A stretch of 64,000 bases of DNA from Flexilinea flocculi (GTDB taxonomy: Bacteria; Chloroflexota; Anaerolineae; Anaerolineales; Anaerolineaceae): positions 1-64,000 of the forward strand of contig NZ_DF968181.1 of assembly GCF_001192795.1 (NCBI RefSeq). The letters run 5' to 3'. Made by a program: the position numbers and the translations under genes. Positions within the stretch are counted from its first letter, which is position 1. Each line of letters starts with the position of its first letter. The notes beneath the pieces were generated by a model that was given only the letters and a program-made list of their open reading frames with translations, did no database searches and was not told the DNA's origin. Shown here piece after piece: positions 7,595 through 50,795 of this stretch.

Positions 7595-8869
7595 CTATCC
7601 AATCGCTTTTATGGATTTGTTTTCACCCATAAAGCGGTAAATGATACGCAACGCTTCTTCGTCACTAATCATCTCACGGTCTGTTAGTTGCAGCATCAAT
7701 TCCCCGATTTTTGAGCCTGCTTCGCTTAAAACCAGATTGTCGGCAGCGCTGATGTCGTCTCCGGTAACCTGTATGCTGCAATCAGGATTAATCTGCGGAT
7801 CAATCTGTGCGCGGCGTGCCAGCGTATGCTGCAGCAGATCGCTGATCAACCAGAGAAAATATTTCTGCCTTTGTTCAAAATGACGATACGTTGATTCACC
7901 GGCGGACTCGGCGCTGGTTTTATTTTCAGATTCCGGTTCAGCCAGAAAATGCAGCGGAATGCCCGCTCCGGCAGCAATCATTTTTTTCATGGCGAGACCG
8001 TCAGTATTCGCATCAGCGCTTTCAAGTTGCGGTGACAGCACCGACCAATCTTCTTGTTCACCGGTTACCAGGATGGATCCAGGTGCGGGCGGAATTGCAT
8101 TAAGCTGCTGCTGTCGCTGTAAACGCTGTGCTTCATTGCCAAAACGTGCCTTAACGACGAACAGGAAACTGTTACGGTAGCGATTTAACCGCGCCCGATC
8201 CTCCAGCCAGTTGGAATACCGGCTGATCCAACGCAGCAAGGGTGACAGATCCGGTTCTCCCCACTGTGCTCCGACAGGTCGGTTGACCGTAAAATGCAGC
8301 ATTGCGGGCTCCAATGTCGGATCCAGACGGTCTGCTGCCGGAAAATGGCGGATCCCGTAACTGCATGAGTCCGGAACTTGATTGATGGAGAACGGTTGCA
8401 GGATACCGAAGCTGATCGGTTGTTCCAGATCGTTATCGCGGGATTTTATCTCCTGAATCTGACTGGCAGGAACTGCCCGGACATAACTCATTCCGGATGG
8501 ATCTGAGGATAAAAGAATGAACAGATTTCCGGAGCGGCATAATTCATCACTCCATTCATGAATACGGATATCCATGCGGTTTAATGGATGATTCCAAAAC
8601 TGATGCAGAAAGCGGTCATCAGACTCCTGCTCAGCTTTAAAATGGATGCCCTTACCGATCACATATTGCGTTGTGATGGAGACGATTCTGCGCGCAATTG
8701 GATTCTCCCGCCATGCAGTCAGTGAGTCTTCAATCGTCTCCTGCAGGTTATATCGGGGTCTGTCCCGGAATGCTTGTGGTGATGTTCCGACAAAAAATTC
8801 CGGATCTGCAGCATTATCGTGAATACCAAGCCATTCGCGGATGATTTTTTTTGGATTGATGACTGCCAT
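7595..8869 (-). CDS. Phage portal protein
   Basis: 424 residues from the ATG at 8869. AGGAGG sits six bases before this ATG and only three before the one at 8872, so I prefer 8869. The sequence has typical portal features: RENPIARRIVSITTQYVIGK near the N-terminus, a central segment with the SGNLFILL pattern, then KKMIAAGAGIPLHFLAEPES and STYRHFEQRQKYFLWLISDL, as in portal proteins of tailed phages. In a virion, a portal ring forms the DNA entry vertex and docks the terminase. It is intact, but no capsid, protease or scaffold gene lies beside it. Upstream is a promoter with a palindromic operator-like site shared with the small-terminase-like gene. Confidence 0.82.
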   Translation of the reverse strand: MAVINPKKIIREWLGIHDNAADPEFFVGTSPQAFRDRPRYNLQETIEDSLTAWRENPIARRIVSITTQYVIGKGIHFKAEQESDDRFLHQFWNHPLNRMDIRIHEWSDELCRSGNLFILLSSDPSGMSYVRAVPASQIQEIKSRDNDLEQPISFGILQPFSINQVPDSCSYGIRHFPAADRLDPTLEPAMLHFTVNRPVGAQWGEPDLSPLLRWISRYSNWLEDRARLNRYRNSFLFVVKARFGNEAQRLQRQQQLNAIPPAPGSILVTGEQEDWSVLSPQLESADANTDGLAMKKMIAAGAGIPLHFLAEPESENKTSAESAGESTYRHFEQRQKYFLWLISDLLQHTLARRAQIDPQINPDCSIQVTGDDISAADNLVLSEAGSKIGELMLQLTDREMISDEEALRIIYRFMGENKSIKAIG

Positions 8870-8887
8870 CATATTCCTCCTAAAAAA

Positions 8888-10531: not shown

Positions 10532-11164
10532 TCATTCATTCAAAGGCAGCATCAAAATTCCATTATCATACTTCATTGCTACCCAACGCCCGCTGCAGAT
10601 TTGAATCCAGCAGGATTCCGATCGGTCCTCTTCAATAACTGCTGCACCTTCTGCTAATTGACCACAGATGGGAAAATGAATCCCGGGACCGCTACGGACA
10701 TTTAATACATCGCAAACAACTTGCCATTGAACCAATCCGGGCTTTTTCCCATCGGAAGCTGCCAGTTGCCCGGTTTCATTGGCTTGATCCAGATATGGCT
10801 GCGGATTAATTGGTGTTTTGTTATAACGCAGCTCAAAATGAAGATGCGGACCGGTGGAATTCCCAGTGTTGCCGCTGTACCCGATGACCTGATTCTGCGA
10901 TACTGGATCGCCTGTGGAGATAAGAATCCTTGAAAGGTGAGCGTACAGTGTCTGGAATCCCTCGGCATGGTTGAGAATGACATAATTCCCGTATGGAGTT
11001 GTACTATAAACAGCTAGTGCCACAGCGCCGGCTTCCGATGCATGAATGGGCGTGCCGGAACACAGCGCATAATCGATTCCAGTGTGTCCTTCGGGATTGG
11101 TGATTTTCTCTCCAAATTCTTGTGTGATCGGCGCGATACCTGAATACGGTTTTTTAAATTGCAT
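10532..11164 (-). CDS. M23 family endopeptidase with C-terminal SH3-like domain (probable endolysin)
   Basis: 210 residues from the ATG at 11164, which has a strong GGAGGAG site; the open frame further upstream lacks one. The M23 (LytM-like) domain spans about residues 10-115, with zinc ligands in GHTGID and GPHLHFEL. A bacterial SH3-type domain follows, with VCDVLNVRSGPGIHFPICGQ at about residues 140-160. There is no signal peptide, which suits a phage endolysin released by a holin better than a housekeeping wall hydrolase. It lies between the phage-type terminase and portal genes. A housekeeping origin cannot be excluded. Confidence 0.8.
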   Translation of the reverse strand: MQFKKPYSGIAPITQEFGEKITNPEGHTGIDYALCSGTPIHASEAGAVALAVYSTTPYGNYVILNHAEGFQTLYAHLSRILISTGDPVSQNQVIGYSGNTGNSTGPHLHFELRYNKTPINPQPYLDQANETGQLAASDGKKPGLVQWQVVCDVLNVRSGPGIHFPICGQLAEGAAVIEEDRSESCWIQICSGRWVAMKYDNGILMLPLNE

Positions 11165-11183
11165 TGCTCCTCCTTCCAGCGAT

Positions 11184-11291
11184 TCGAAATTTGAAAAAAT
11201 ACTGATTGTTGTCATGTTTTGCGTTTTGTGTAAAAAAAATACACCAACATTTTTCTATCCATCCAAAAATCTTGTCTATATTTCGAATTGC
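11184..11291. repeat. Intergenic hairpin element (decayed core)
   Basis: The ends CCAGCGATTCGAAATTTG and TATATTTCGAATTGCAG are good copies of the family's terminal inverted repeats. The central hairpin is degenerate (GTTTTGCGTTTTGTGTAAAA region). It fills the whole gap between the endopeptidase and large terminase genes, so it probably inserted into a former operon. Confidence 0.7.
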
Positions 11292-11294
11292 AGT

Positions 11295-12950
11295 CTAAAA
11301 ACCCTTGTCCATTTCCTCTAATGGATCTGAACCGGGAATAATCAACGTCTCGAAAGCATCGCTGGTCAAATCATGATCCAGACAGGCTGCCAATGCCGCA
11401 CTGAAAACCAGATCGTCATGAACAATATCTCCGTTGACTGGATCTCGAACACCCTCCGGTACTCCCCAGCGCAATATTCTGGCAGGTCCCGGATGAATTT
11501 CGGATCTGCAGGAGCGTAATTGTTGGAAAAAGAGCGTTTGCAGCGCGGATTGTTCCTTGTCGAAATCGTCCAGAGCGGTTAAATATTCATGCCATCGACC
11601 GGAATCAATCAAGGCAAGAAAATCCCAGCCAAGTTTGCTCTTGGAAGAAGCGGAGAATGTAAACGGAATCACACGCGAGGCACCCACAGTTCGTATCAGG
11701 AAACTGGAAAGGCCGGCGCCGATTCCAGTAGCATCGATGATGATCCTTTTAGGGTCCCAAATGCGGATCATCTCCGTCAAGCGTACATATTGTTCACTGA
11801 GCGGTAGATTTGTCCAGAGGACGCGTTGAAGAACTGACCAAACCGGCTGAACAGAATCTGAGCGTGCAAATTCGGACTTTGCATCCGGATAGGCGATACT
11901 GCATATTGTGATAGCTGTCGCATCACGGCGATCGACAGCCTCAGTTTCACCGAAGGTTTTTCCGGAAGTTTCATCCGCGCCTGCCACATCTGCCAGGATG
12001 ACAATCCAATCGGAAGCTTGAGGTGCCGTCCGCGGAGGATGGTCACTTTGCATGGACTTGATCCGATCTTCATGAAACAATTGGTTTTCTCCTCCAAATT
12101 CTTCGCAAAAATATTGTGTTCGAATCATCGGGTGCTGTCTCCCCAGTTTTCTGACTTGTTCCTGTACAAAGCGGCCATATGCGGGAACCTCAGCAGCGAC
12201 AATTTCCGCGTTGATGCAGAAGGCTCGGCGTGCCAGCAGGTTACCGGATTGACAAGACTCCTGCTCAAATTTTCGGGCTGCTGCAAGTTCACGCGCGAGC
12301 AATGTTTCGGCTGTCCAGGCAGTTCCCCAAAAAACTCGGGTGCTGTTGCGGGAGGATGCCATAGGTGCGATTTCACGCTCATATTTTGCTGCAAGCACAT
12401 CTTGCGCTTCATCTACCTCCAACAACAAACTGGCAGTGGCTCCGACGATGTTCGATTCAGGTGCTCCGCTGAGGAACAGAATGCGGGCTTCCCCGATCCG
12501 ATAGATATATCCGGATTCCTTTTGCCACAAATCCTTTGTGATGATGTTCCGCCGTAACGTGCTTTCAAGTCTGCGCATGGCATTCAAGCTTTGAGGTTTC
12601 CAGGTCGGGCTGATTTTTACAATCTCTCCTCCACTCTGAGAAAACAACATCAATAGATAGGTTTCTATTTGTGCCTGCAGCTCGTTCTTGCCGCTCTGGC
12701 GCGGAAACATCACCACAAACGATCCGCCTTCTTGATGAAGTACAGAAGATACGATCGCTTCTGCGACATCACGCTGGTAATTTCTCAACCGTATCCCTGA
12801 GAAAGAATTCGTGAAAACAGTGATGTTCGCAAACGCTTCTTTCAAGGATGAAACCAGATCTGCCTGACTTCCGATTTTCATGCAAAAAAGGATCGGATCA
12901 GAGCAGTAACGGATAAAAGTGCCGATCCGCTGTTGGAAAGCGTGCTCCAT
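11295..12950 (-). CDS. Phage terminase large subunit
   Basis: 551 residues. The ATPase domain has a Walker A of the terminase type, FPRQSGKNE, at about residues 82-90, and a Walker B, LLLEVDEAQD, at about 175-184. A nuclease-like domain follows, with WIVILADVAGAD near residue 320 and RIIIDATGIGAGL further on. It would be the packaging motor that docks on the portal and cuts concatemeric DNA. The start overlaps the preceding 88-residue gene by 73 bases; an in-frame ATG at 12881 is an alternative that shortens the overlap. No frameshift or stop is seen. In phages the portal usually follows directly, but here an endopeptidase, a host operon and repeats intervene. Confidence 0.85.
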   Translation of the reverse strand: MEHAFQQRIGTFIRYCSDPILFCMKIGSQADLVSSLKEAFANITVFTNSFSGIRLRNYQRDVAEAIVSSVLHQEGGSFVVMFPRQSGKNELQAQIETYLLMLFSQSGGEIVKISPTWKPQSLNAMRRLESTLRRNIITKDLWQKESGYIYRIGEARILFLSGAPESNIVGATASLLLEVDEAQDVLAAKYEREIAPMASSRNSTRVFWGTAWTAETLLARELAAARKFEQESCQSGNLLARRAFCINAEIVAAEVPAYGRFVQEQVRKLGRQHPMIRTQYFCEEFGGENQLFHEDRIKSMQSDHPPRTAPQASDWIVILADVAGADETSGKTFGETEAVDRRDATAITICSIAYPDAKSEFARSDSVQPVWSVLQRVLWTNLPLSEQYVRLTEMIRIWDPKRIIIDATGIGAGLSSFLIRTVGASRVIPFTFSASSKSKLGWDFLALIDSGRWHEYLTALDDFDKEQSALQTLFFQQLRSCRSEIHPGPARILRWGVPEGVRDPVNGDIVHDDLVFSAALAACLDHDLTSDAFETLIIPGSDPLEEMDKGF

Positions 12951-13878: not shown

Positions 13879-16176
13879 ATGAAACGATTGATTCCACCAA
13901 AAGCAATTTTCCTGTTTGTACTCGTTCTAATCATATTGATATCGATCAGCGTTCTCGGACGCTCATTGAATCATACAGAAAAGACACCGGAAGCACCTGT
14001 CGTCGATTCTTTATTTGAGATGAAAAATCGTGTTCAAATCAGTGACCAGGAATTTGCTGCTGTGTTGGCTGATGATCAACCGCAACCGGCTGCTGTGATG
14101 GATACGACCATTTTTTCCGAATTGACTTCAACTGACCTTTCGAAAATTGAAGATGCGGCGTTTCTGTCTTATGTGACGCAGATCCGATCAGAAAAATCAG
14201 CCCCGGCTGAAGCAAAGGCTTTTAAAGTCTTTATTAAATATCAGGAGGGTGAGCGTGAAAATCTGAAACGGCTGCTTGGACAGTCCGACACGGAAGAAGT
14301 ATATTTTTACAACGCTCTCAATTTGGTTTCTGTACAAATCCGGGGAGATATTCTGGCGAATGTACTGAAAGAAGGCGAAGACACAGTGATCAGTGTCAAT
14401 ACAGACAGTGTGAACGAGATCAGTGATACGCTGACAGAGAACGAATTCAACACCTTTACATTGGGTGGAGGTACGGAAGAAATAACCGAAGTATCACGGC
14501 TCCATCAAGCCGGATATACTGGCAAAGGTACTGCAATCGCGATTTTGGACACCGGATTGGATGCGAGTCACGTGGAATTTGGTGATCGAGTCATTCTTGA
14601 AAAATGCTTTTCAACCAAATTTGGCGATGCCGGAAGCGATGATGCGTATTATCTTTCGCTCTGCAAAGACCAGAAACTGACAGCGGATTCTGCCTACCCT
14701 TATAGTGATTATCCGCAAACTGTGACTCATGGATCGCATGTGGCTGGTATTGCTGCTGGAAAAGGCGGAATGGCTCCGGAAGCGAATATCATTGCTGTAC
14801 AAGTTTTTTCTCAATATCTTTATAAAGATCAGAGTGGGACGCGCTGGGCAACTACCGCTGCGTTTGACAGCGATTATCTGAAAGGTCTGGACTATATTTA
14901 TGGTCTGGCGCAGGAGGGTGTGCCGATTGCGGCTGTCAATCTGAGCCTCGGAAGCGGAGAATATTATGACGTGTGTGATGACTCTGATCGACTGGGTATT
15001 TCCACACTTTTCCGCAAATTGAATGAACTGGGCATCACGGTTGTGACGGCTGCCGGCAATTCGGGTACTGAACAAGGGTATGATGGCTGGATCAGCGCAC
15101 CTGCGTGTTATTCCGGATCTTTTACTGTTGGTGCGCTGGATTATCATGGCGGAAAACCGAAGATTGCGGATTTTTCCAGTTACAACAATCTGGTCGATCT
15201 GCTCGCTCCCGGTACAAAAATCAACTCAGCCTGTCTGAGCGGTTATTGCGAAAAATCGGGTACGTCCATGGCGGCGCCGGCGGTATCAGGCGCGATTGCG
15301 CTGGTTAAGGGTAATTTCCAGGGAGCTTCCGGATTGGATGCGGCCGCTTTTTTACAGAAAATCAGCACTGTCTCTTATCAAAAATCAGGCGTTTCCAGGA
15401 AGAGTCTGAATTTTCACACAGTTTTTTCTGATAAAACGCTGGATCGACCATCTCAGATAATCCCCGTTACTCTTTCCGACGATGAAATAATATCTGAAAC
15501 TGATAATCCGTCTATTGCCGCGGTAATACCGGATGATCCGGTGATGGTCGATTCAATTCAAAAGAACCTTGAGCCCGGAACCATCGGTGGATCAGGGAAT
15601 ACAGAAATTTCTGCAGCATATAACGATTCTTTGCTATTCCCTCAGAAAGCCTGGCGCTGGGATTTTGATCATCTGCCTTCAACTGGTTTCCCTGCGGGAC
15701 GCTTGACAACGCTGACGGATATGCCTTCCGGCATTCAATATCAAAATCTCGGTCTGAGTATTGAAATTCCGGCTATTGACAGCAATTCGCAGATTGTATC
15801 TTTGCCGCTGACCGATACAGGGTTTGCGGCAGACTGGCTGGGGAAGGATGCCGGTTTGCTGCAAGGTTCGAATTTGCCCGGGGAGGGGATTTCGATTATC
15901 GCAGCGCATAACCATTTGAGTACCGGAGAAACTGGTCCGTTCCTGTTCTTGATGGATTTACAGCAAAAAGACCGAATTTTTATACGAAAAACTGGCGGCG
16001 ATATGCTGTCCTATGCGGTTTATGCAAATATTCGCATTACTCCGGATGAAGTAGAGAAGCTCGATGAACTGGCAAAAACAGATTGTCTGATTCTTGTGAC
16101 CTGCGAGGATCAATCCATCGATGGCGGTTATGCCTATCGAAGAGTGGTCTTTGCAGAACCGTTTGAAACAAAATAA
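13879..16176 (+). CDS. Subtilisin-like (S8) protease fused to LPSTG motif and sortase domain
   Basis: 765 residues from the ATG at 13879, chosen because it gives a clean signal peptide (MKRLIPPKAIFLFVLVLIIL). The frame stays open upstream to 13828, so a longer start is possible; no start has a strong ribosome site. A propeptide-like region (about residues 100-180) precedes the S8 domain, whose triad is Asp224 in ILDTGLD, His284 in THGSHVAG and Ser463 in GTSMAAP; VTAAGNSG carries the oxyanion Asn. A linker of about 100 residues leads to LPSTGF at 599. The sortase domain follows, with His677 in IAAHNH, Cys742 in LVTCE and RRVVFA. A protease and a transpeptidase in one secreted polypeptide is unusual. 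It may process or anchor surface proteins; this is inference. Confidence 0.9.
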   Translation: MKRLIPPKAIFLFVLVLIILISISVLGRSLNHTEKTPEAPVVDSLFEMKNRVQISDQEFAAVLADDQPQPAAVMDTTIFSELTSTDLSKIEDAAFLSYVTQIRSEKSAPAEAKAFKVFIKYQEGERENLKRLLGQSDTEEVYFYNALNLVSVQIRGDILANVLKEGEDTVISVNTDSVNEISDTLTENEFNTFTLGGGTEEITEVSRLHQAGYTGKGTAIAILDTGLDASHVEFGDRVILEKCFSTKFGDAGSDDAYYLSLCKDQKLTADSAYPYSDYPQTVTHGSHVAGIAAGKGGMAPEANIIAVQVFSQYLYKDQSGTRWATTAAFDSDYLKGLDYIYGLAQEGVPIAAVNLSLGSGEYYDVCDDSDRLGISTLFRKLNELGITVVTAAGNSGTEQGYDGWISAPACYSGSFTVGALDYHGGKPKIADFSSYNNLVDLLAPGTKINSACLSGYCEKSGTSMAAPAVSGAIALVKGNFQGASGLDAAAFLQKISTVSYQKSGVSRKSLNFHTVFSDKTLDRPSQIIPVTLSDDEIISETDNPSIAAVIPDDPVMVDSIQKNLEPGTIGGSGNTEISAAYNDSLLFPQKAWRWDFDHLPSTGFPAGRLTTLTDMPSGIQYQNLGLSIEIPAIDSNSQIVSLPLTDTGFAADWLGKDAGLLQGSNLPGEGISIIAAHNHLSTGETGPFLFLMDLQQKDRIFIRKTGGDMLSYAVYANIRITPDEVEKLDELAKTDCLILVTCEDQSIDGGYAYRRVVFAEPFETK

Positions 16177-18358: not shown

Positions 18359-18579
18359 CCCGTCCCAATCCTTATCCCCAATCCGTTATATTGCGGATTT
18401 ATTATAAAAACAGACTCGATTCCTTCTACAAGTATCTTACATTATTGTATTTATTTTAATATTGAATTATCATTTCATTTTGAAAGATAATCCAATATTC
18501 TATTTAAGATGCATTCCATATTACATTGAATGGAATAGTTATCACTCCTACAATAATCATCTCTGTAAGTGATCTAAAA

Positions 18580-19149
18580 ATGCCTTATTGGAGGATTCAA
18601 GATTTGACCTTTTCACACCCCAAAAATCGCCATTCCATCCGCCTGAAAGATTACGATTATACCCAGTCGGGCGCGTATTTCATCACGCTGGTAACATATC
18701 AGCGGGAAAACAGGTTTGGGAAAATTATTAATCGAGAAATGAAAATAAACGAATACGGGGAAATCGTAGTCAATGAATGGAAAAAATCGGCATTAATCCG
18801 GGCAGAAATTGAATTGGATGTTTATGTTGTCATGCCTAATCATTTTCATGCAATCGTATACATTACGGACAATTTTGACGTTCATCGTTGTAGGGGCGAC
18901 CGGCCGATCGCCCCTACAACAACCATCTCGGCGGGACCAACCCCAAAATCAATTGGCGCATTGGTTGCCGGATTCAAATCTGCCGTTACACATCAGATCA
19001 ATCAAAAATGTTTGACATCGGGTCTGCCTGTCTGGCAACGCAACTATTATGAACACATCATTCGGAACGAAAAATCATTCTTGAAAATTCGCCGTTATAT
19101 CCTTGAAAATCCAATGCAATGGGAACAGGATTCATTACATGTCGCGTAG
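18580..19149 (+). CDS. REP-associated tyrosine transposase (RAYT, Y1/IS200-like)
   Basis: 189 residues from the ATG at 18580 (MPYWRIQDLTF). The family signature is complete: the HUH motif in VVMPNHFHAIVYI and the catalytic Tyr in QRNYYEHIIRNEKS. RAYTs cut and join single-stranded REP hairpins. REPs of one family sit upstream (18321), inside the gene (18887-18920, read in frame as CRGDRPIAP) and at its end (19144-19173), where the TAG stop is part of the REP itself. The gene is intact, so it may still be active. No strong ribosome site is visible, which is usual for this family. Confidence 0.93.
   Translation: MPYWRIQDLTFSHPKNRHSIRLKDYDYTQSGAYFITLVTYQRENRFGKIINREMKINEYGEIVVNEWKKSALIRAEIELDVYVVMPNHFHAIVYITDNFDVHRCRGDRPIAPTTTISAGPTPKSIGALVAGFKSAVTHQINQKCLTSGLPVWQRNYYEHIIRNEKSFLKIRRYILENPMQWEQDSLHVA
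18887..18920. repeat. REP palindrome inside the RAYT coding region
   Basis: GTTGTAGGGGCGACCGG and its near-complement CCGATCGCCCCTACAAC form a 34-base palindrome with one mismatch. It adds codons in frame between the HUH motif and the catalytic Tyr region. Confidence 0.88.
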
Positions 19150-38381: not shown

Positions 38382-38500
38382 CTGAATAGCAATTCGAAAT
38401 ATTAACTTGTTTTTCGAACCAATCGGGAAAACTTGTTGTTGTGTTGTTTCTGCATTTTGTGCAGAAACAACACAACAACAATAAATCCTTCCCATCTTTT
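38382..38500. repeat. Intergenic hairpin element with a 22-bp perfect stem
   Basis: The left end is AGCAATTCGAAATATT. The core at 38433-38481 pairs TTGTTGTTGTGTTGTTTCTGCA with its complement over 22 bp around a five-base loop. The inner arm TTTCTGCA/TGCAGAAA differs from TTTTTGCG in sister copies, with matching change on the other side. It lies between the convergent HAD and giant surface protein genes. Confidence 0.85.
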
Positions 38501-38526
38501 ACCCCGCTGCTTAATCTGATAAAGCT

Positions 38527-39137
38527 TTGTTCCATTGATGAAAAGACCGATATGAATCGTTTGTCTTGAATCTCGCACCGGTCTTATTCATTATCAGAAA
38601 ATCACCGAATATGATTGCCAAATTTACAGAAGCGGCTTTGCATAGACAATTCTTCTGTACTGGTATCCGCCTTCCAGAAGCTCCTGCTCGCAGGTAATCA
38701 GAACAAGCGAACCGGGGATTGTATTTTGAAAAACGGCGTCGACATCATCTGGTTGTACAAGTTGATTGGCATAAACACTGTATACAAGAAATTTATCCTT
38801 TGCCGTATTAACAAAGATGCGGTCATTTTCTTTCAAATTCAGCAAAAAAGCAAAAGGTCCTGCAGTTCCGAGATCGATATGATTATGTCCTGCGATAATT
38901 GAAGTACCTTCTCCAGGTAGAGCTGTTCCTTCGAGAAGACCGGCGCGGTTTCCCAGCCATTCCACTGAAAATTTGGTTTTATCATCTTGCGGTACAACGA
39001 CCAGTTCGGCAAAACTGTCGATGATTGGAATTTCAATGGTGAATCCGCTCAGATTGCGATAGGCAAGGGCGGCAGGTTGTGCCGGCAGCACGGTGCGCTT
39101 GCCTGCCGGAAATCCAGTTTCAGGCAACACTTCAGGT
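38527..39137. repeat. Duplicated sortase module and terminator (copy 1)
   Basis: This segment matches 50185-50795 at a constant offset of 11,658 bases. It covers the sortase domain, the LPxTG motif, the stop codon and about 95 bases downstream including the terminator. Similarity ends abruptly just upstream of the motif (CAGGCAACACTTCAGGT), where the ectodomains diverge completely. Confidence 0.9.
38541..38586 (-). terminator. Probable terminator of the giant DUF11-sortase gene
   Basis: AAGACCG (38543-38549) and CGGTCTT (38579-38585) form a stem; on the minus strand it ends in TCTTTTC. The same structure is conserved at 50199-50244 after the paralogous gene. Confidence 0.55.
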
Positions 39138-48100: not shown

Positions 48101-49408
48101 AAATGGGTCTCCTGCCGGGTAGTCTATTCCTAAAACCGTGAGCGGTTTGTCATCTGTCACTGTGAATGGACCGTCCACTGACCCGCTTGTTCCTGTGTTT
48201 TTGATGATGTAAGTATATGTAAGAATTTGTCCAACAGCGTTAAAGGATAAAGTTGATATGTTTTTCGTCAAACCCAAAGCGGTGGGTAAACCGATGTTAA
48301 CCGTTGCTGTAGCTGGTCCAACAGTGGTTGAACCCTGAAGACCAGTTGCCGAATTTGAGTAGTTAAATCCATTGGGACAGCCAGTAATTGCAGTCGTATA
48401 AATCAACTTAAGAGATGAATTTGCAGCAATAGGATAGCCGAGTCCACTGCCTATCCAGTTAACAGTTCCATTTGCACCTACCGATGGGAGGCTGGACGAA
48501 TTTGCAGCGGTTACATCACTGCCAGAGGCAGCCGGGTTTGCGACGGTCATACAAGTGGGTAAAACGTCCGTGATCGAGTCAAGAGTAATTGCGACAGGTG
48601 TACTATTACTGAAAACCACTGTCCAGGTGATTGGCCCTGCTGTATTACTTGCCAGCGTAGATGGAGATGCCGTCTTGGCCATGGTGAGTGTAGGTAACGC
48701 AGCTGATAGAATTGTCGAGGAAGCAAAACCCGTGTATTTATACTGCGAGCCACTCCTTGCGGCTGACCAAGGATGCACCATCACTTGCGAATTGCGGCAG
48801 TTAATCTCCCAGGAGTAAGTAATGGTGATCGTTCCACCTCCGCCCGGAATGCTGGCTGTTGGGAACGCAAGATAATTTTGTTGCCCAACTGTGACTCCCG
48901 TCACACCTCCAGAAATGGCAGTGACAGTTGAAGCAACCAGTCTCACACAACTATCTGGGAAGCCAGCCTCGCCTGCCGGTTGGAAGAACAAATCGGTGTT
49001 ATTTCCAAATGAATAGACCACTTTTTGAGTCAACAATTGGCCGAGAAATACTCCAGGACCAAGCACGGAACTCTGGGCAATTCCGCCTGCATTCGCACTT
49101 AGCAAGGTACTGGTTGTCACCGTTCCCGCACGGTTCACCGCGGTATATCCTGTTGCAGTCGCTGAAATTGTATAGTTGGCAGTGTATCCCCCGAATGGAT
49201 CTCCTCCCCCCTTGGAATGGTTGCAGACTTCCGAATAGTCTACATAGAAATAAGTCCCCACACTTGCGCCTGCAGCCAGTGACACGATCGTTCTCGTTTG
49301 ATCGCTCGGGGTCTTAAAATAAGAAGCATTCGTACCTGTGAAACTCGAGAAATTAACCACAACATTGGATAACGCAGCAGCGCTGGTATTTGTGATCTGA
49401 AATGACAA
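38624..49408 (-). CDS. Giant DUF11-repeat surface protein with PKD domain, LPETG motif and C-terminal sortase
   Basis: 3594 residues in this open segment. It continues in frame, across one TGA at 49409-49411, from the signal-peptide segment at 49409-49621. About 22 DUF11-type Ig-like repeats of 80-110 residues follow each other; typical wording is TYTIKNTGNVTLSGPF, VTDDHIGSPLGTPF, CGSGPL and a closing GxVTNTAxAxG. A non-DUF11 insert occupies about residues 1830-2080 (TGTGTLFTSELTVGDSISID, then SDDTSSIYINGIYLGQHTG), with a PKD domain after it (VYDAPGVYVAQVTARAQYGC). LPETGFPAGKRT starts at 3428. The sortase domain has His3508 in IAGHNH, Cys3573 in LITCE and RRIVYAKP. It is probably a long fibrous adhesin. 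Cys pairs at fixed places in many repeats suggest disulfides. Confidence 0.88.
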   Translation of the reverse strand: MSFQITNTSAAALSNVVVNFSSFTGTNASYFKTPSDQTRTIVSLAAGASVGTYFYVDYSEVCNHSKGGGDPFGGYTANYTISATATGYTAVNRAGTVTTSTLLSANAGGIAQSSVLGPGVFLGQLLTQKVVYSFGNNTDLFFQPAGEAGFPDSCVRLVASTVTAISGGVTGVTVGQQNYLAFPTASIPGGGGTITITYSWEINCRNSQVMVHPWSAARSGSQYKYTGFASSTILSAALPTLTMAKTASPSTLASNTAGPITWTVVFSNSTPVAITLDSITDVLPTCMTVANPAASGSDVTAANSSSLPSVGANGTVNWIGSGLGYPIAANSSLKLIYTTAITGCPNGFNYSNSATGLQGSTTVGPATATVNIGLPTALGLTKNISTLSFNAVGQILTYTYIIKNTGTSGSVDGPFTVTDDKPLTVLGIDYPAGDPFPCGNGPLAAGMTTSCIATYTVTAADVISGTITNTAIAAGSGLTSDSAKAMTIYAGPGLSLTKTPSLPTFQTAGNIITYTYVIKNTGNVVLSGPFTVTDDHIGSPLGTPFICGSGPLAIGGTTSCTAAYTITSADATAGFVLNTASATGNGITTNQTQANVIQAQTPGVTVAKSVLPTAFTTAGNTLTYTYTVTNTGNTTLSSITISDDHIGSPAGTAFACGSGTLAAGATRTCSVSYTVTAADIASGSVKNTATASSISGSGGNQIVVNSDPVSVTANKAAPALTMSKNVTETSYSNVGTVIHYAYTVKNTGNVSVTGPITISDNMINGGSSFTCSNNNLAVGGSISCNAIYLVNQTDLDKGSVTNTASASGVGVTSPTDSKTIYADQTPALSLTKNPSLENFTAAGQTIAYTYTIRNTGNVTLNGPFWVSDDHLGSPLGTPFTCGSGPLTPDATTSCTSSYTTTETDLTARKVTNFASVSGNGITSAVASATVSVLESDLSISKNDGSATYTAGNPISYTIIVSNNGPSNANGVSISDAVPATITGITQNCVASGIASCGIDASSGNDISFSGVNINAGAANYLTITVNGIISATMTEPLVNTATVVVGTGQVDPISDNNTATDTDTSQPQTELLIFKSDDRGTYTAGSPISYTIIVKNNGPSNASGVSISDTVPVSITGVTENCVASGTASCGSNGSSGNDILFTGISINAGAANYLTITVNGTVSAGASGTLVNTAIVEPGTGQTDPISGNNSAPDANLANPQTDLIITKTAGSGSYTAGNPISYIIKVSNNGPSDASGASISDTVPDWITGVTENCVASGTASCGANGSSGNDILFTGMSISAGAENYLTITVNGTVSASARGNLENTVQVNAGSGQTDPTSENNSATESVTINPALAPVITKVFSPNSIPVGGLTTLTLNITNPNTDTALSGVAFSDTYPAGLINNSPLSTINTCGGTLVASEGGNTLSYTGGSIPANGTCSVSVVVKATSSGSLTNTSSEVTAVNSDPGGASSDVLTVIAVADLGITKTDGVLTVKSVDSPLTPVTYTLTVVNTGTITAAGVELKDTIPANLNFVSSTCGTPAIEGSIYTWALADIAANASYSCTVTCSVAAGLSDGTRISNYAHISTTSTEPNLTNNEVADINIVQSTDAPDLRVTKTDGQTSVLSGDTITYTISYTNASLTADATGVVLTDTIPSNASYISSSDSGVNVGSTVTWTIGNLAANETGTRTVTIQVNDSLLSGAAVLNRVNIHGTETDYNLMDNSSTDSDVVVAPYVVIEKSVSGDASIGGILTYSIHWQNNSTADAAEVVITDAIPSHTTLVPGSITASGSESGGTITWNLGTQPPGSSGTVSFQVSAAEGAGGDVSTTPSLSTETGSGSVTVVSKTSAYTTLPWCDSSRCLGYKTIYQGTGNANSVGPIGWNDNPRAVAASDADAFASSPWIQPTAADVETFYWMNSSVLNAEWTAAQTDYQLTGTIAVTQGSDSVTGTGTLFTSELTVGDSISIDNNDYKVASITDDFHLTLTAPYAGDTNSGLSYYTEGIVDPNYSFFRQAFCLPLNASNLNGTLNISSDDTSSIYINGIYLGQHTGAGAYGTYSGANSIQSGINILAVELENNIHNGHKVYSGGDHSGLLFNLQANYGSLRPFASAPTMIMTGQAATFTIDENALGGRTPYDYSVDFGDGSSAPYQASTTITHVYDAPGVYVAQVTARAQYGCTGTDQVTINVLPIGNQILANTANVAYKNSTLTGTYAGQSGAGINLLPGLILEKTTSTSGYTMVGDTISYNFTLTNNGNVTLTAPTIRDDHIGEFNCGTGPLNPEATTSCTQTYTVTQADLDAGNVKNIATGHASFNGDNVDSNVDEVTVSGSQSPSLLLTKTAEPSIYSAVGQTIQYTYTIKNNGNVTLSGPFSITDDKTTVACTQPEDGLLSLDEEMTCAAVYKITLGDLDSGIVTNNATGHANFKGVAVDSNSDDFTVNATQSPSISLTKTAEPLTYSAVDDEITYSYTLTNTGNVTLSSPFNITDDHIGNPTNTPFDCGSLTSLPVGETTSCTATYAITQADLDSGSVTNTAQGHAKFNDVPVISEPDVFTVNAIQSPELSVTKTDDRNPANFNTLGQVVTYTLTATNNGNITLHNVTVSDSPTLDDFTCDPLNGSVLAPDEKLTCSGKHTINQDDLDNGFFNDMASASSTEITASNATNVINANQNGLLSLTKTDDLSPANFDTLGQVVTYTLTATNNGNITLHNVTVNDSPMLDDFSCDPVNGSDLEPFASMVCNGTHTINQTDLDNGYLIDTASASSDEATAPYSSVTLTATQTARLELSKAANPSEYYQVGQIINYTYTIKNTGNVNLTGIFSVSDDKASVTCSAPEDGTLSPNEEMICSATYAITQADLITGIVTNSAFASGFFGSNPINSDPVDETIIIGEIPSILVVKSSTTNEISSAGDVVPYTFTVTNQGEMPLTGVTVVDPNCTGSISLPTGDTNLDGKLQVDENWIYHCNHTVTQSEIDAGGTLSNTVTVDSNESTPYTDTLEINIVQNAGLTLEKTAEEYTYNQVGDILHFSITAHNSGNVTLTAVEISDPKITGLDCDLDIPAILLPNESLVCRGTHIVVQADLDAGFYSNASSASGTPPDGTALTPNSDLIIYAAPMIGLAKNLVSIKPVTGSAGTWDVEFGFLIRNYDAKLITGLHVVDDLESTFPVPAEILSIQELTSPTLHVNNGFNGISDQNLLTGEDILAGNADATITLVVRLIPASSSYFNTAQVSGIDPDGKTVGDASENGTNPDPDGNNMPGDNWTPTPITFNAYIFDPPHGVKTFDATGLPLLEWTMEWINNTNIIAINAEIHDPIPVGASYSAAGISSGYGLPASYPPGSTNIGVACTDSSTITTTELCYYEGPTPANPRGQIIWKGILGPDLGGFDPIVAVNDLQINFFVKVNDGITGVENRATIDSDRNGDGDTIDSGETDVASADANWKTIPPIPEVLPETGFPAGKRTVLPAQPAALAYRNLSGFTIEIPIIDSFAELVVVPQDDKTKFSVEWLGNRAGLLEGTALPGEGTSIIAGHNHIDLGTAGPFAFLLNLKENDRIFVNTAKDKFLVYSVYANQLVQPDDVDAVFQNTIPGSLVLITCEQELLEGGYQYRRIVYAKPLL

Positions 49409-49621
49409 TCAGGCACCGCGAGGCCCCTGAGCATTGCATCGGTTGGCATCGAGCCACAATTTTTCTTGTGATGTGAGCGTAATTGTCAACGGTGCAGATG
49501 CGGCATTAACCGACCATCGGGGCTGAACGAAAACTGCAATCAACAATATTGCAAAAAGAAAAAGAATTCGTTTTCTTTTTAATAACGAGATATTCTGCTG
49601 ACTCAAAAAGAATTGTTTCAA
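49409..49621 (-). CDS. Signal-peptide segment of the giant DUF11 protein, cut off by an in-frame TGA
   Basis: 70 residues starting at a TTG (49621) with a GAGGAG site five to six bases upstream; no ATG is available. A basic stretch KRKR and RILFLFAILLIAVFVQPRW make a signal peptide, followed by SAPLTITLTSQEKLWLDANR and CNAQGPRGA. The next codon is TGA, and the frame then reads LSFQITNTSAAALSNVV without a break through the giant protein. The two segments are clearly one gene of 3,665 codons. Whether the TGA is a sequencing or assembly error, a fresh mutation or a recoded codon cannot be told from here. Confidence 0.85.
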   Translation of the reverse strand: MKQFFLSQQNISLLKRKRILFLFAILLIAVFVQPRWSVNAASAPLTITLTSQEKLWLDANRCNAQGPRGA

Positions 49622-49825
49622 TTTCGCTCCTCAACACTGCTAATAAAATCTCGTAACAATAATAAATTACTCAATTCATTGGGGAAAAAGGCAAAGAAAA
49701 AACCTGCTGAAATAGTCTTTGTATTTATCGATTAAAGCAATTCTACAGTTAAGATCATCAACGATCTAATTAAATCCGACATTAGGACTAAATTATTTTA
49801 TCGACGATTATCCTGATAATCCAGC

Positions 49826-49944
49826 GATTCGAAATTTGGAAAAGCCTTTTGAGAAAAGAGAGAAAACTTGTTGTTGTATTGTTTTTGCGCTCCGCTCAAA
49901 AACAATACAACAACAAATACTCCCGCTCATAATTCGAATTGCTG
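49826..49944. repeat. Intergenic hairpin element, well-preserved copy
   Basis: The ends CAGCGATTCGAAATTTGG and CATAATTCGAATTGCTG flank a core (49868-49916) in which TTGTTGTTGTATTGTTTTTG pairs with its full complement over 20 bp. The arm has TATTG where the neighbour at 50070 has TGTTG, with the matching change on the opposite arm. Along with the next copy it fills the 660-base gap between the giant gene and the 959-residue paralogue; I see no gene there. Confidence 0.85.
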
Positions 49945-50029
49945 CTTATAATCCGTTTCTTGTAATAGGTAATAATTATATATATAAAGTATATTCTTTT
50001 TTACCAACGAATTTATTAAATGTTAGCAA

Positions 50030-50148
50030 TTCGAAATACGGAAAAGCCTTTTGAGAAAAAAGAAAAAAATTGTTGTTGTGTTGTTTTTGCGCTCCGTGCA
50101 AAAACAACACAACAACAACTAATCCCTCTCATAATTCGAATTGCTGGA
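50030..50148. repeat. Intergenic hairpin element, well-preserved copy
   Basis: The ends AGCAATTCGAAATACGG and CATAATTCGAATTGCTG flank a core at 50070-50118 with a 21-bp perfect stem (TTGTTGTTGTGTTGTTTTTG and complement). GGAAAAGCCTTTTGAGAAAA on its left is shared with the copy at 49826. Confidence 0.85.
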
Positions 50149-50184
50149 ACAATCATGAATTCTTTTCATATTTCTATTTACTGT

Positions 50185-50795
50185 TTGTTCCATCGATGAA
50201 AAGACCGATATGAATCGCTTATCTTGAATCTCGCACCGGTCTTATTCATTATCAGAAAATCACCGAATATGATCGCCAAATTTACAGAAGCGGCTTTGCA
50301 TAGACAATTCTTCTGTACTGGTATCCGCCTTCCAGAAGCTCCTGCTCGCAGGTAATCAGAACAAGCGAACCGGGGATTGTATTTTGAAAAACGGCGTCGA
50401 CATCATCTGGTTGTACAAGTTGATTGGCATAAACGCTGTATCCAAGGATTTTATCCTCTGCCGTATGAACAAAGATGCGGTCATTTTCTTTCAAATTCAG
50501 CAAAAAAGCAAAAGGCCCAGCACTTCCGAGATCAATATGATTATGTCCTGCAATGATTGAAGTACCATCTCCAGGCAGGGCTGTTCCTTCGAGGAGACCG
50601 GCGCGGTCTCCCAGCCATTCCACTGAAAATTTGGTTTCATCGTCTTGCGGAACAACGACCAGATCGGCAAAACTGTCGATGATCGGAATTTCAATGGAGA
50701 ATCCGCTCAGATTGCGATAGGCAAGGGCGGCAGGTTGTGCCGGCAGCACGGTGCGCTTGCCTGCCGGGAATCCGGTTCCAGGCAACACTTCAGGT
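50185..50795. repeat. Duplicated sortase module and terminator (copy 2)
   Basis: Partner of 38527-39137. Over the 167 residues from LPGTG to the C-terminus I count about a dozen substitutions relative to the giant protein. The terminator (50199-50244) is included. Confidence 0.9.

Follow-up and report, generated by a model that had tools for sequence, protein, structure and literature searches.

Within the window analysed here, the 64,000 nucleotides at the start of contig NZ_DF968181.1 of Flexilinea flocculi, one gene (P0001, placed on contig 3 of the 3.51-Mb genome) encodes a 765-residue protein in which a subtilisin-type (S8) protease is followed by an LPSTGF sorting motif and a complete sortase domain. 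The reading put forward here, for which the chances are about even, is that P0001 is a secreted, probably self-maturing subtilase with a self-contained C-terminal anchoring tail that would act on its own LPxTGF. In its general form, the proposal is that Anaerolineales surface proteins may carry a natural C-terminal autoprocessing domain, a single-use sortase of their own that would cut the chain between the threonine and glycine of LPxTG, make a covalent bond to the envelope and be portable between genes as a cassette; this is tentative, its chances falling somewhat short of even. Sortase anchoring is understood as a system in which a single enzyme serves many substrates in trans, and the arrangement proposed here would contrast with that logic.

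P0001 has the features by which an S8 peptidase is recognized, the Asp/His/Ser triad and the oxyanion Asn in an S8 fold, and a Pfam search placed Peptidase_S8 at residues 215-492 (E 1.2e-35, over the curated cut-off). D224, H284, N394 and S463 are invariant in 17/17 aligned S8 sequences, 15 of them tailed and two tail-less. The same search placed Sortase at residues 628-761 (E 1.2e-16, 61 bits against a cut-off of 26.6), and this part of the chain has what marks the Sortase (C60) superfamily, a barrel with His, Cys (of the TxTC type) and Arg. The claim of the sequence-only reading that a complete S8 triad (Asp224/His284/Ser463) and sortase His677, Cys742 and Arg754 share one 765-residue chain, joined through LPSTGF, is confirmed. 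Among the NCBIfam sortase models only the general TIGR01076 was passed (41.3 bits, cut-off 39.35); the class C (NF033745, 38.5 bits, cut-off 160) and class F (NF033748, 23.7 bits, cut-off 166) models and every other listed subfamily stayed under their cut-offs, as did the SGO_0316/0317 LPXTG-anchored serine peptidase model NF040553 (26.9 bits, cut-off 1400). The best fold match of the whole P0001 model is unautoprocessed pro-subtilisin E (3whi), which fits a self-maturing zymogen, and no Pfam pro-domain family matches the protein. The evidence for export consists of a single N-terminal hydrophobic segment found by a hydropathy scan (residues 1-33), with no clear signal-peptidase site seen in the N-terminus.

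The fusion is real. Of the related genomes, G010 carries S8 domain and tail in one 991-residue open reading frame (ORF), matching P0001 at 83% identity over residues 1-534 and at 64% over 511-764. A search for S8 and Sortase in a single chain, proposed in the sequence-only reading, returned 18 distinct ORFs spread over 7/14 genomes of the genus (Flexilinea, Anaerolineaceae): one each in G000, G005 and G010, two in G007, three in G006 and five each in G012 and G013. Between P0001 and its G010 counterpart, the ratio of nonsynonymous to synonymous substitution rates (dN/dS) is 0.04 in the S8 domain, 0.17 in the sortase, 0.13 over residues 1-198 and 0.32 over the linker (513-595), values that indicate purifying selection on both domains. 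The possibility that two separate genes were joined at the linker by a frameshift or an assembly error, raised together with the original observation, is therefore ruled out and has virtually no probability left, since the same fusion occurs in G010 and in 16 more ORFs of five other genomes and the frame is unbroken and under selection.

A fusion restricted to P0001 was likewise considered and is ruled out, as the tail is general in its own genome and in the genus genomes. The tail module comprises the last ~166 residues, LPxTGF plus sortase, and sits at the C-terminus of very different secreted proteins. From 97 ORFs, 85 distinct full tails were obtained; 10 duplicates and two partial rows (L010, a broken gene that keeps the motif, and L065, with no in-frame motif) were excluded from the counts. 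P600, T602, G603, H677, T741, C742 and Y751 are invariant in all 85, R754 is present in 84 (with one gap) and F604 in 78, whereas in the columns just ahead of the motif (590-598) the commonest residue is found in at most 20 tails. The motif opens the tail match in 85/85 and lies ~165 residues from the C-terminus in seven tails of the Flexilinea flocculi genome. The preservation of the motif next to a variable linker, in every case immediately ahead of the sortase, points to its being used. The tail profile itself contains the motif and rows were required from its first 12 positions, so that motif-less tails are under-sampled in these counts, hence the counter-check on 41 other sortase ORFs given below.

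In the own genome there are eleven sortase matches, divided among one stand-alone enzyme (C1:207938, 295 aa, membrane-type), seven long ORFs with the tail, one ORF whose tail diverges to IPDTGY, and two fragments of a single broken gene. The divergent tail (L013, C1:415633-418368) has a counterpart in G004 (L146), the two forming a second tail subtype in which IPDTGYSLR before the sortase is conserved in two genus genomes. The broken gene (L017, C2:594786-599870) is interrupted inside the sortase, and its domain halves lie ~3.2 kb apart. Across the 14 genus genomes, the Sortase model finds 2 to 46 matches per genome (E 1e-6). At the level of the phylum, tail matches that include the motif (E <1e-48) were found in at least 27/400 Chloroflexota genomes, all Anaerolineales among the matches listed; the 85-row profile was built from many of those 27 genomes, so presence there follows by construction and it is the gap to the rest that is informative. 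Beyond Anaerolineales, again among the matches listed, matches mostly start at the sortase domain. A profile made from genus tails only gave a similar distribution at E 1e-15, with 28/400 genomes, 27 of them Anaerolineales and one, the partial match in G311, from elsewhere in the class. Mobility of the tail on plasmids was considered and is unsupported, the plasmid collection giving no tblastn match at E 1e-3.

The sequences of tailed genes in the window indicate how the tail spreads. The 3594-residue and 965-residue proteins are 89% identical in amino acids over their last 180 residues and have no similarity outside them by BLASTP, and the DNA module shared by their genes starts ~10 bp ahead of the motif's Leu codon and extends ~258 bp beyond the stop. 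A tree of the 85 tails accounts for the distribution of S8 cargo with 7 label changes, where shuffled labels need 15.6 on average, and starred branches force at least three of the 7; tails and cargo have thus recombined, though S8 cargo is clustered. The "other" cargo label on this tree is less certain for rows from beyond the genus, because their loci reach only ~1.5 kb upstream. Judged from these comparisons, the tail moves as one unit between genes. Cargo was classified in 51 of the 55 full tailed ORFs (L010, L013, L022 and L026 were excluded, and the window copy of P0001 substitutes for L018): 17 carry S8, a share inflated by the gathering of loci partly via similarity to P0001, and the others carry DUF11/DUF7507, leucine-rich repeats, PKD, SpaA, ice-binding-like and other domains. 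The pairing of protease and sortase, which the sequence-only reading had singled out as the oddity, is therefore a real fusion but not the core of the matter, the protease being one cargo of many.

Ordinary LPxTG anchoring signals are absent from these proteins and genomes by profile search. Gram_pos_anchor (PF00746) was found in 0/14 genus genomes, the same search being positive in B. subtilis and L. lactis. P0001 has the LPxTG motif of wall-anchored proteins (LPSTG, 599-603) and lacks the hydrophobic segment and positive tail that follow it in that class; by hydropathy scan, none of the 51 full tailed proteins has a membrane segment within 45 residues past the motif, whereas 46 have an N-terminal hydrophobic segment and three a mid-protein one. 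The tails were also set against other sortase ORFs. [LIVMF]PxTG within 60 residues before the sortase domain occurs in 82/85 tails and in 1/41 other sortase ORFs of the phylum (three stand-alone genus ORFs, L146, the tail-like partials L139 and L140, four long ORFs and the rest mostly stand-alone), and the single positive is L146 with IPDTG, itself a tailed genus protein. With any first residue allowed, P-x-T-G is found in 6/41 against 85/85. Relatives of the APETG-bearing ORF among these (L159, L160, L161) do not keep the motif, indicating that P-x-T-G turns up here and there in Pro/Thr-rich linkers without being conserved.

The order of events that we infer is as follows. P0001 would be exported by Sec and its pro-domain removed, after which Cys742 would attack the Thr602-Gly603 bond of its own chain, linking the protease and sortase portions through a thioester. 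A surface amine, either on a peptidoglycan precursor stem or on a lysine of another surface protein, would then accept the protease portion, and this would free a sortase fragment comprising residues 603-765, with a calculated mass of 17.7 kDa. Such chemistry within one chain is plausible, since in the available part of PMC2901362 engineered SrtA-LPETG-target fusions self-cleaved by 20-40% during cell-free synthesis. Self-anchoring of a surface protease, one of two roles suggested in the sequence-only reading, is the best-supported one, though inferred. If correct, anchoring in these bacteria would be encoded in cis, probably single-use and portable, with no shared pairing of sortase and substrate. 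It would also account for the decoration of the envelope in filamentous Chloroflexota that have no detectable Gram_pos_anchor proteins, and would provide natural one-chain protein-ligation modules.

Structural models bear on where the motif lies relative to the active site. The AF2 model of the tail, from 85 sequences, has a mean pLDDT of 92.5; in ten-residue blocks from residue 1 the values are 66, 88 and 84, so that the block holding most of the motif (11-20; the motif is at 16-21) is at 88 and the preceding one at 66. Class C pilin sortases, which are membrane-bound, are the closest folds by AF2/VIA-align (Z up to 16.4, rmsd 2.7, 139 aligned residues), and classes A and E follow closely. 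Several class C alignments begin at model residue 5-12, a range covering the motif segment, and against C. diphtheriae SrtA (5k9a) model residues 6..182 span chain residues 72..242, so that the motif, counted without gaps, falls close to D81 and W83 of the lid. These alignments are known by their first and last residues only, and the equivalence by range is suggestive of a tail motif lying about where the C. diphtheriae SrtA lid lies. The N-terminal lid of that enzyme, with D81 and W83, masks its active site, as described in the available part of PMC9126251. The tail therefore resembles class C sortases as its best kin in fold and profile and in having a segment that may lie over the active site, and differs from them in that those are separate enzymes with a lid of other sequence, P0001 scoring far under the class C cut-off. 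It is rather unlikely that LPxTGF is a pseudo-substrate lid which holds the sortase inactive until it serves other substrates while still attached: the equivalent position favors such a role, but the known lid has other residues, P, T and G of a sortase recognition sequence are invariant in 85/85 tails, and ordinary LPxTG substrates for such an enzyme were not detected by PF00746 in the 14 genus genomes.

The similarity to pilus-type class C enzymes also fits a reading in which tailed proteins act on each other, each being both substrate and enzyme, and the sortases link neighbors to each other or to the wall in a covalent surface network. The many sortase matches per genus genome and the frequency of repeat or Ig-like surface proteins among the cargo point in the same direction, whereas an own enzyme beside its own motif in every protein would be needless for a system working in trans. 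This reading is unlikely, though it deserves real weight.

Several observations weigh against the proposal that each tail cuts its own motif. One motif type is common to all tails, a point in favor of the network, and sequence alone gives the same picture for cutting in cis and in trans. In 13/14 genus genomes there is a stand-alone sortase ORF of 246-335 aa, such as the one at C1:207938, whose product might do the cutting in trans. A division of labor in which this housekeeping enzyme cuts and the attached sortase is a leftover or only a recognition handle is improbable, since invariant His and Cys in 85/85 tails and purifying selection on the sortase argue against a relic. Constraint on the sortase domain is, on the other hand, weaker than on the S8 domain, and dN/dS is 0.47 for the 25 codons around the motif, from one pair and over a stretch too short to weigh. 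The N-terminal segment of P0001 is possibly a signal anchor instead of a signal peptide, in which case the protein may remain in the membrane via its N-terminus and anchoring would be less needed. In two of the 51 tailed proteins the tail itself contains a run of 19 residues that is weakly hydrophobic. Five of the 41 control ORFs have P-x-T-G with a different first residue (APATG, APETG, SPMTG, YPNTG, GPITG). Beyond the genus, the tail-like ORFs L139 (at the L065 locus) and L140 lack a motif in frame. Finally, the full-length AF2 model, built from 17 sequences and too shallow to speak for or against docking of the motif, gives the motif region a pLDDT of ~25, keeps segment 525-619 under 50 and models the sortase poorly.

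The second role suggested in the sequence-only reading, that the protease matures other tailed surface proteins ahead of transpeptidation, lacks direct support and is very improbable. In its favor, relatives have a same-strand, tail-less S8 gene directly upstream of a tailed gene of ~920-1050 aa in 8 places (L093, L095, L097, L098, L103 with two, L104 and L106). Against it, no S8 match was found at E 1e-10 in five of the 14 genus genomes (G001, G002, G008, G009 and G011), yet all five carry tails. In the eight neighboring pairs, frames measured from stop to stop abut or share 13-116 bases, one L103 S8 frame being truncated by the locus edge, and the arrangement may represent a split pair of protease and tailed partner. 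The genus has 39 listed S8 matches in 9/14 genomes. One of the tail-less paralogues is in the own genome (L080, C2:629911-631284), a 529-residue ORF 42% identical to P0001, whose end corresponds roughly to the start of the linker in the tailed protein. S8 plus tail as an order-wide unit was considered and rejected, as 0/59 S8 matches in 25 other tail-bearing genomes lie within tail ORFs (E 1e-15); within this sample, the combination appears confined to the genus.

Natural and engineered systems each share part of this layout. The engineered, self-cleaving STEPL, attributed to Warden-Rothman in 2013, is said to have the layout target-LPXTG-sortase, and P0001 would share its order of motif then sortase, by layout only. 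Long Chloroflexota ORFs of 816-1040 aa (L147, L148, L150) also end in a sortase but, unlike the tails, have no P-x-T-G in the 60 residues before it. A 936-residue ORF elsewhere in the phylum (L149) has YPNTG ~50 residues before a C-terminal sortase, possibly a separate origin of a similar arrangement, or chance. Among surface proteases, P0001 is like the streptococcal cell-envelope S8 proteases ScpA and SpyCEP, which in the available part of PMC9082167 are secreted subtilases with a pro-sequence and a C-terminal LPxTG for covalent anchoring. It is unlike them in that their sortase is a separate enzyme (PMC9082167, same part), whereas P0001 carries a whole sortase of its own right after the motif and has no membrane tail. 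With the self-cleaving BISOP fusions it shares a sorting motif and a sortase in one polypeptide; BISOP is man-made with an N-terminal sortase (PMC2901362, available part), whereas the natural module is C-terminal on secreted surface proteins. No description of a natural LPxTG-sortase tail was found in literature searched by title and the start of the abstract, a search outside which most subscription papers fall, and the available parts of PMC12617251, PMC2901362, PMC9126251, PMC11561820, PMC9082167, PMC6403190 and PMC7203096 do not mention one; as evidence of novelty, this silence is weak.

Table 1. Features of P0001 and of other tailed genes in the window.
Feature	Position	Strand	Basis
Subtilase-LPSTGF-sortase gene (P0001), 765 aa	13879..16176	+	Uninterrupted frame without internal stop; Pfam domains; equal architecture in G010 and 16 other genus ORFs
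N-terminal hydrophobic segment, residues 1-33 (signal peptide or signal anchor)	13879..13977	+	Hydropathy scan; helix 7-30 in model
Likely S8 pro-domain, residues ~112-181, beta-alpha-beta-beta-alpha-beta	14212..14421	+	Secondary structure of model; fold match to pro-subtilisin E (3whi)
Peptidase_S8 domain; codons Asp224 14548-14550, His284 14728-14730, Ser463 15265-15267	14521..15354	+	Pfam, alignment
Linker, residues 525-598	15451..15672	+	pLDDT ~25 in model; relaxed selection, dN/dS 0.32 over 513-595
LPSTGF sorting motif, residues 599-604	15673..15690	+	P, T, G invariant in 85/85 tails
C-terminal sortase domain; codons His677 15907-15909, Cys742 16102-16104, Arg754 16138-16140	15760..16161	+	Pfam, tail alignment, AF2 tail model
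Surface-type protein with same tail, 1172 aa	1277..4795 (tail 1280-1783)	-	
DUF7507/DUF11/PKD repeat protein with same tail, 3594 aa	38624..49408 (tail 38630-39133)	-	
Tailed protein, 965 aa	50282..53179 (tail 50288-50794)	-	
Shared DNA module	50024..50795, copy 38387-39137	-	88% over 772 nt

Other features of the window lie around these genes. Just upstream of the 3594-residue tailed ORF, in the same frame, a signal-peptide-like stretch (49405-49650, strand -) is separated from it by one in-frame stop, which reflects either an interrupted gene or a codon error. Palindromes at 38433-38481, 49857-49927 and 50070-50118 flank tailed genes and have similar arms (TTGTTGTTGT.., 21-34 nt, 82-100% complementary); the first and the last of them sit within the two copies of the shared tail-gene DNA block. 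Directly upstream of the P0001 gene, on strand -, are a phage-like portal protein (7595-8872), a peptidase/endolysin-type protein (10532-11215) and a weak terminase match (11295-12950), possibly a prophage remnant. The ORF at 18526-19149 (strand +) has no PHROGs match at 1e-5 and presumably resembles a REP-associated transposase, and stretches coding for RGDRPVAPT recur in frames near it.

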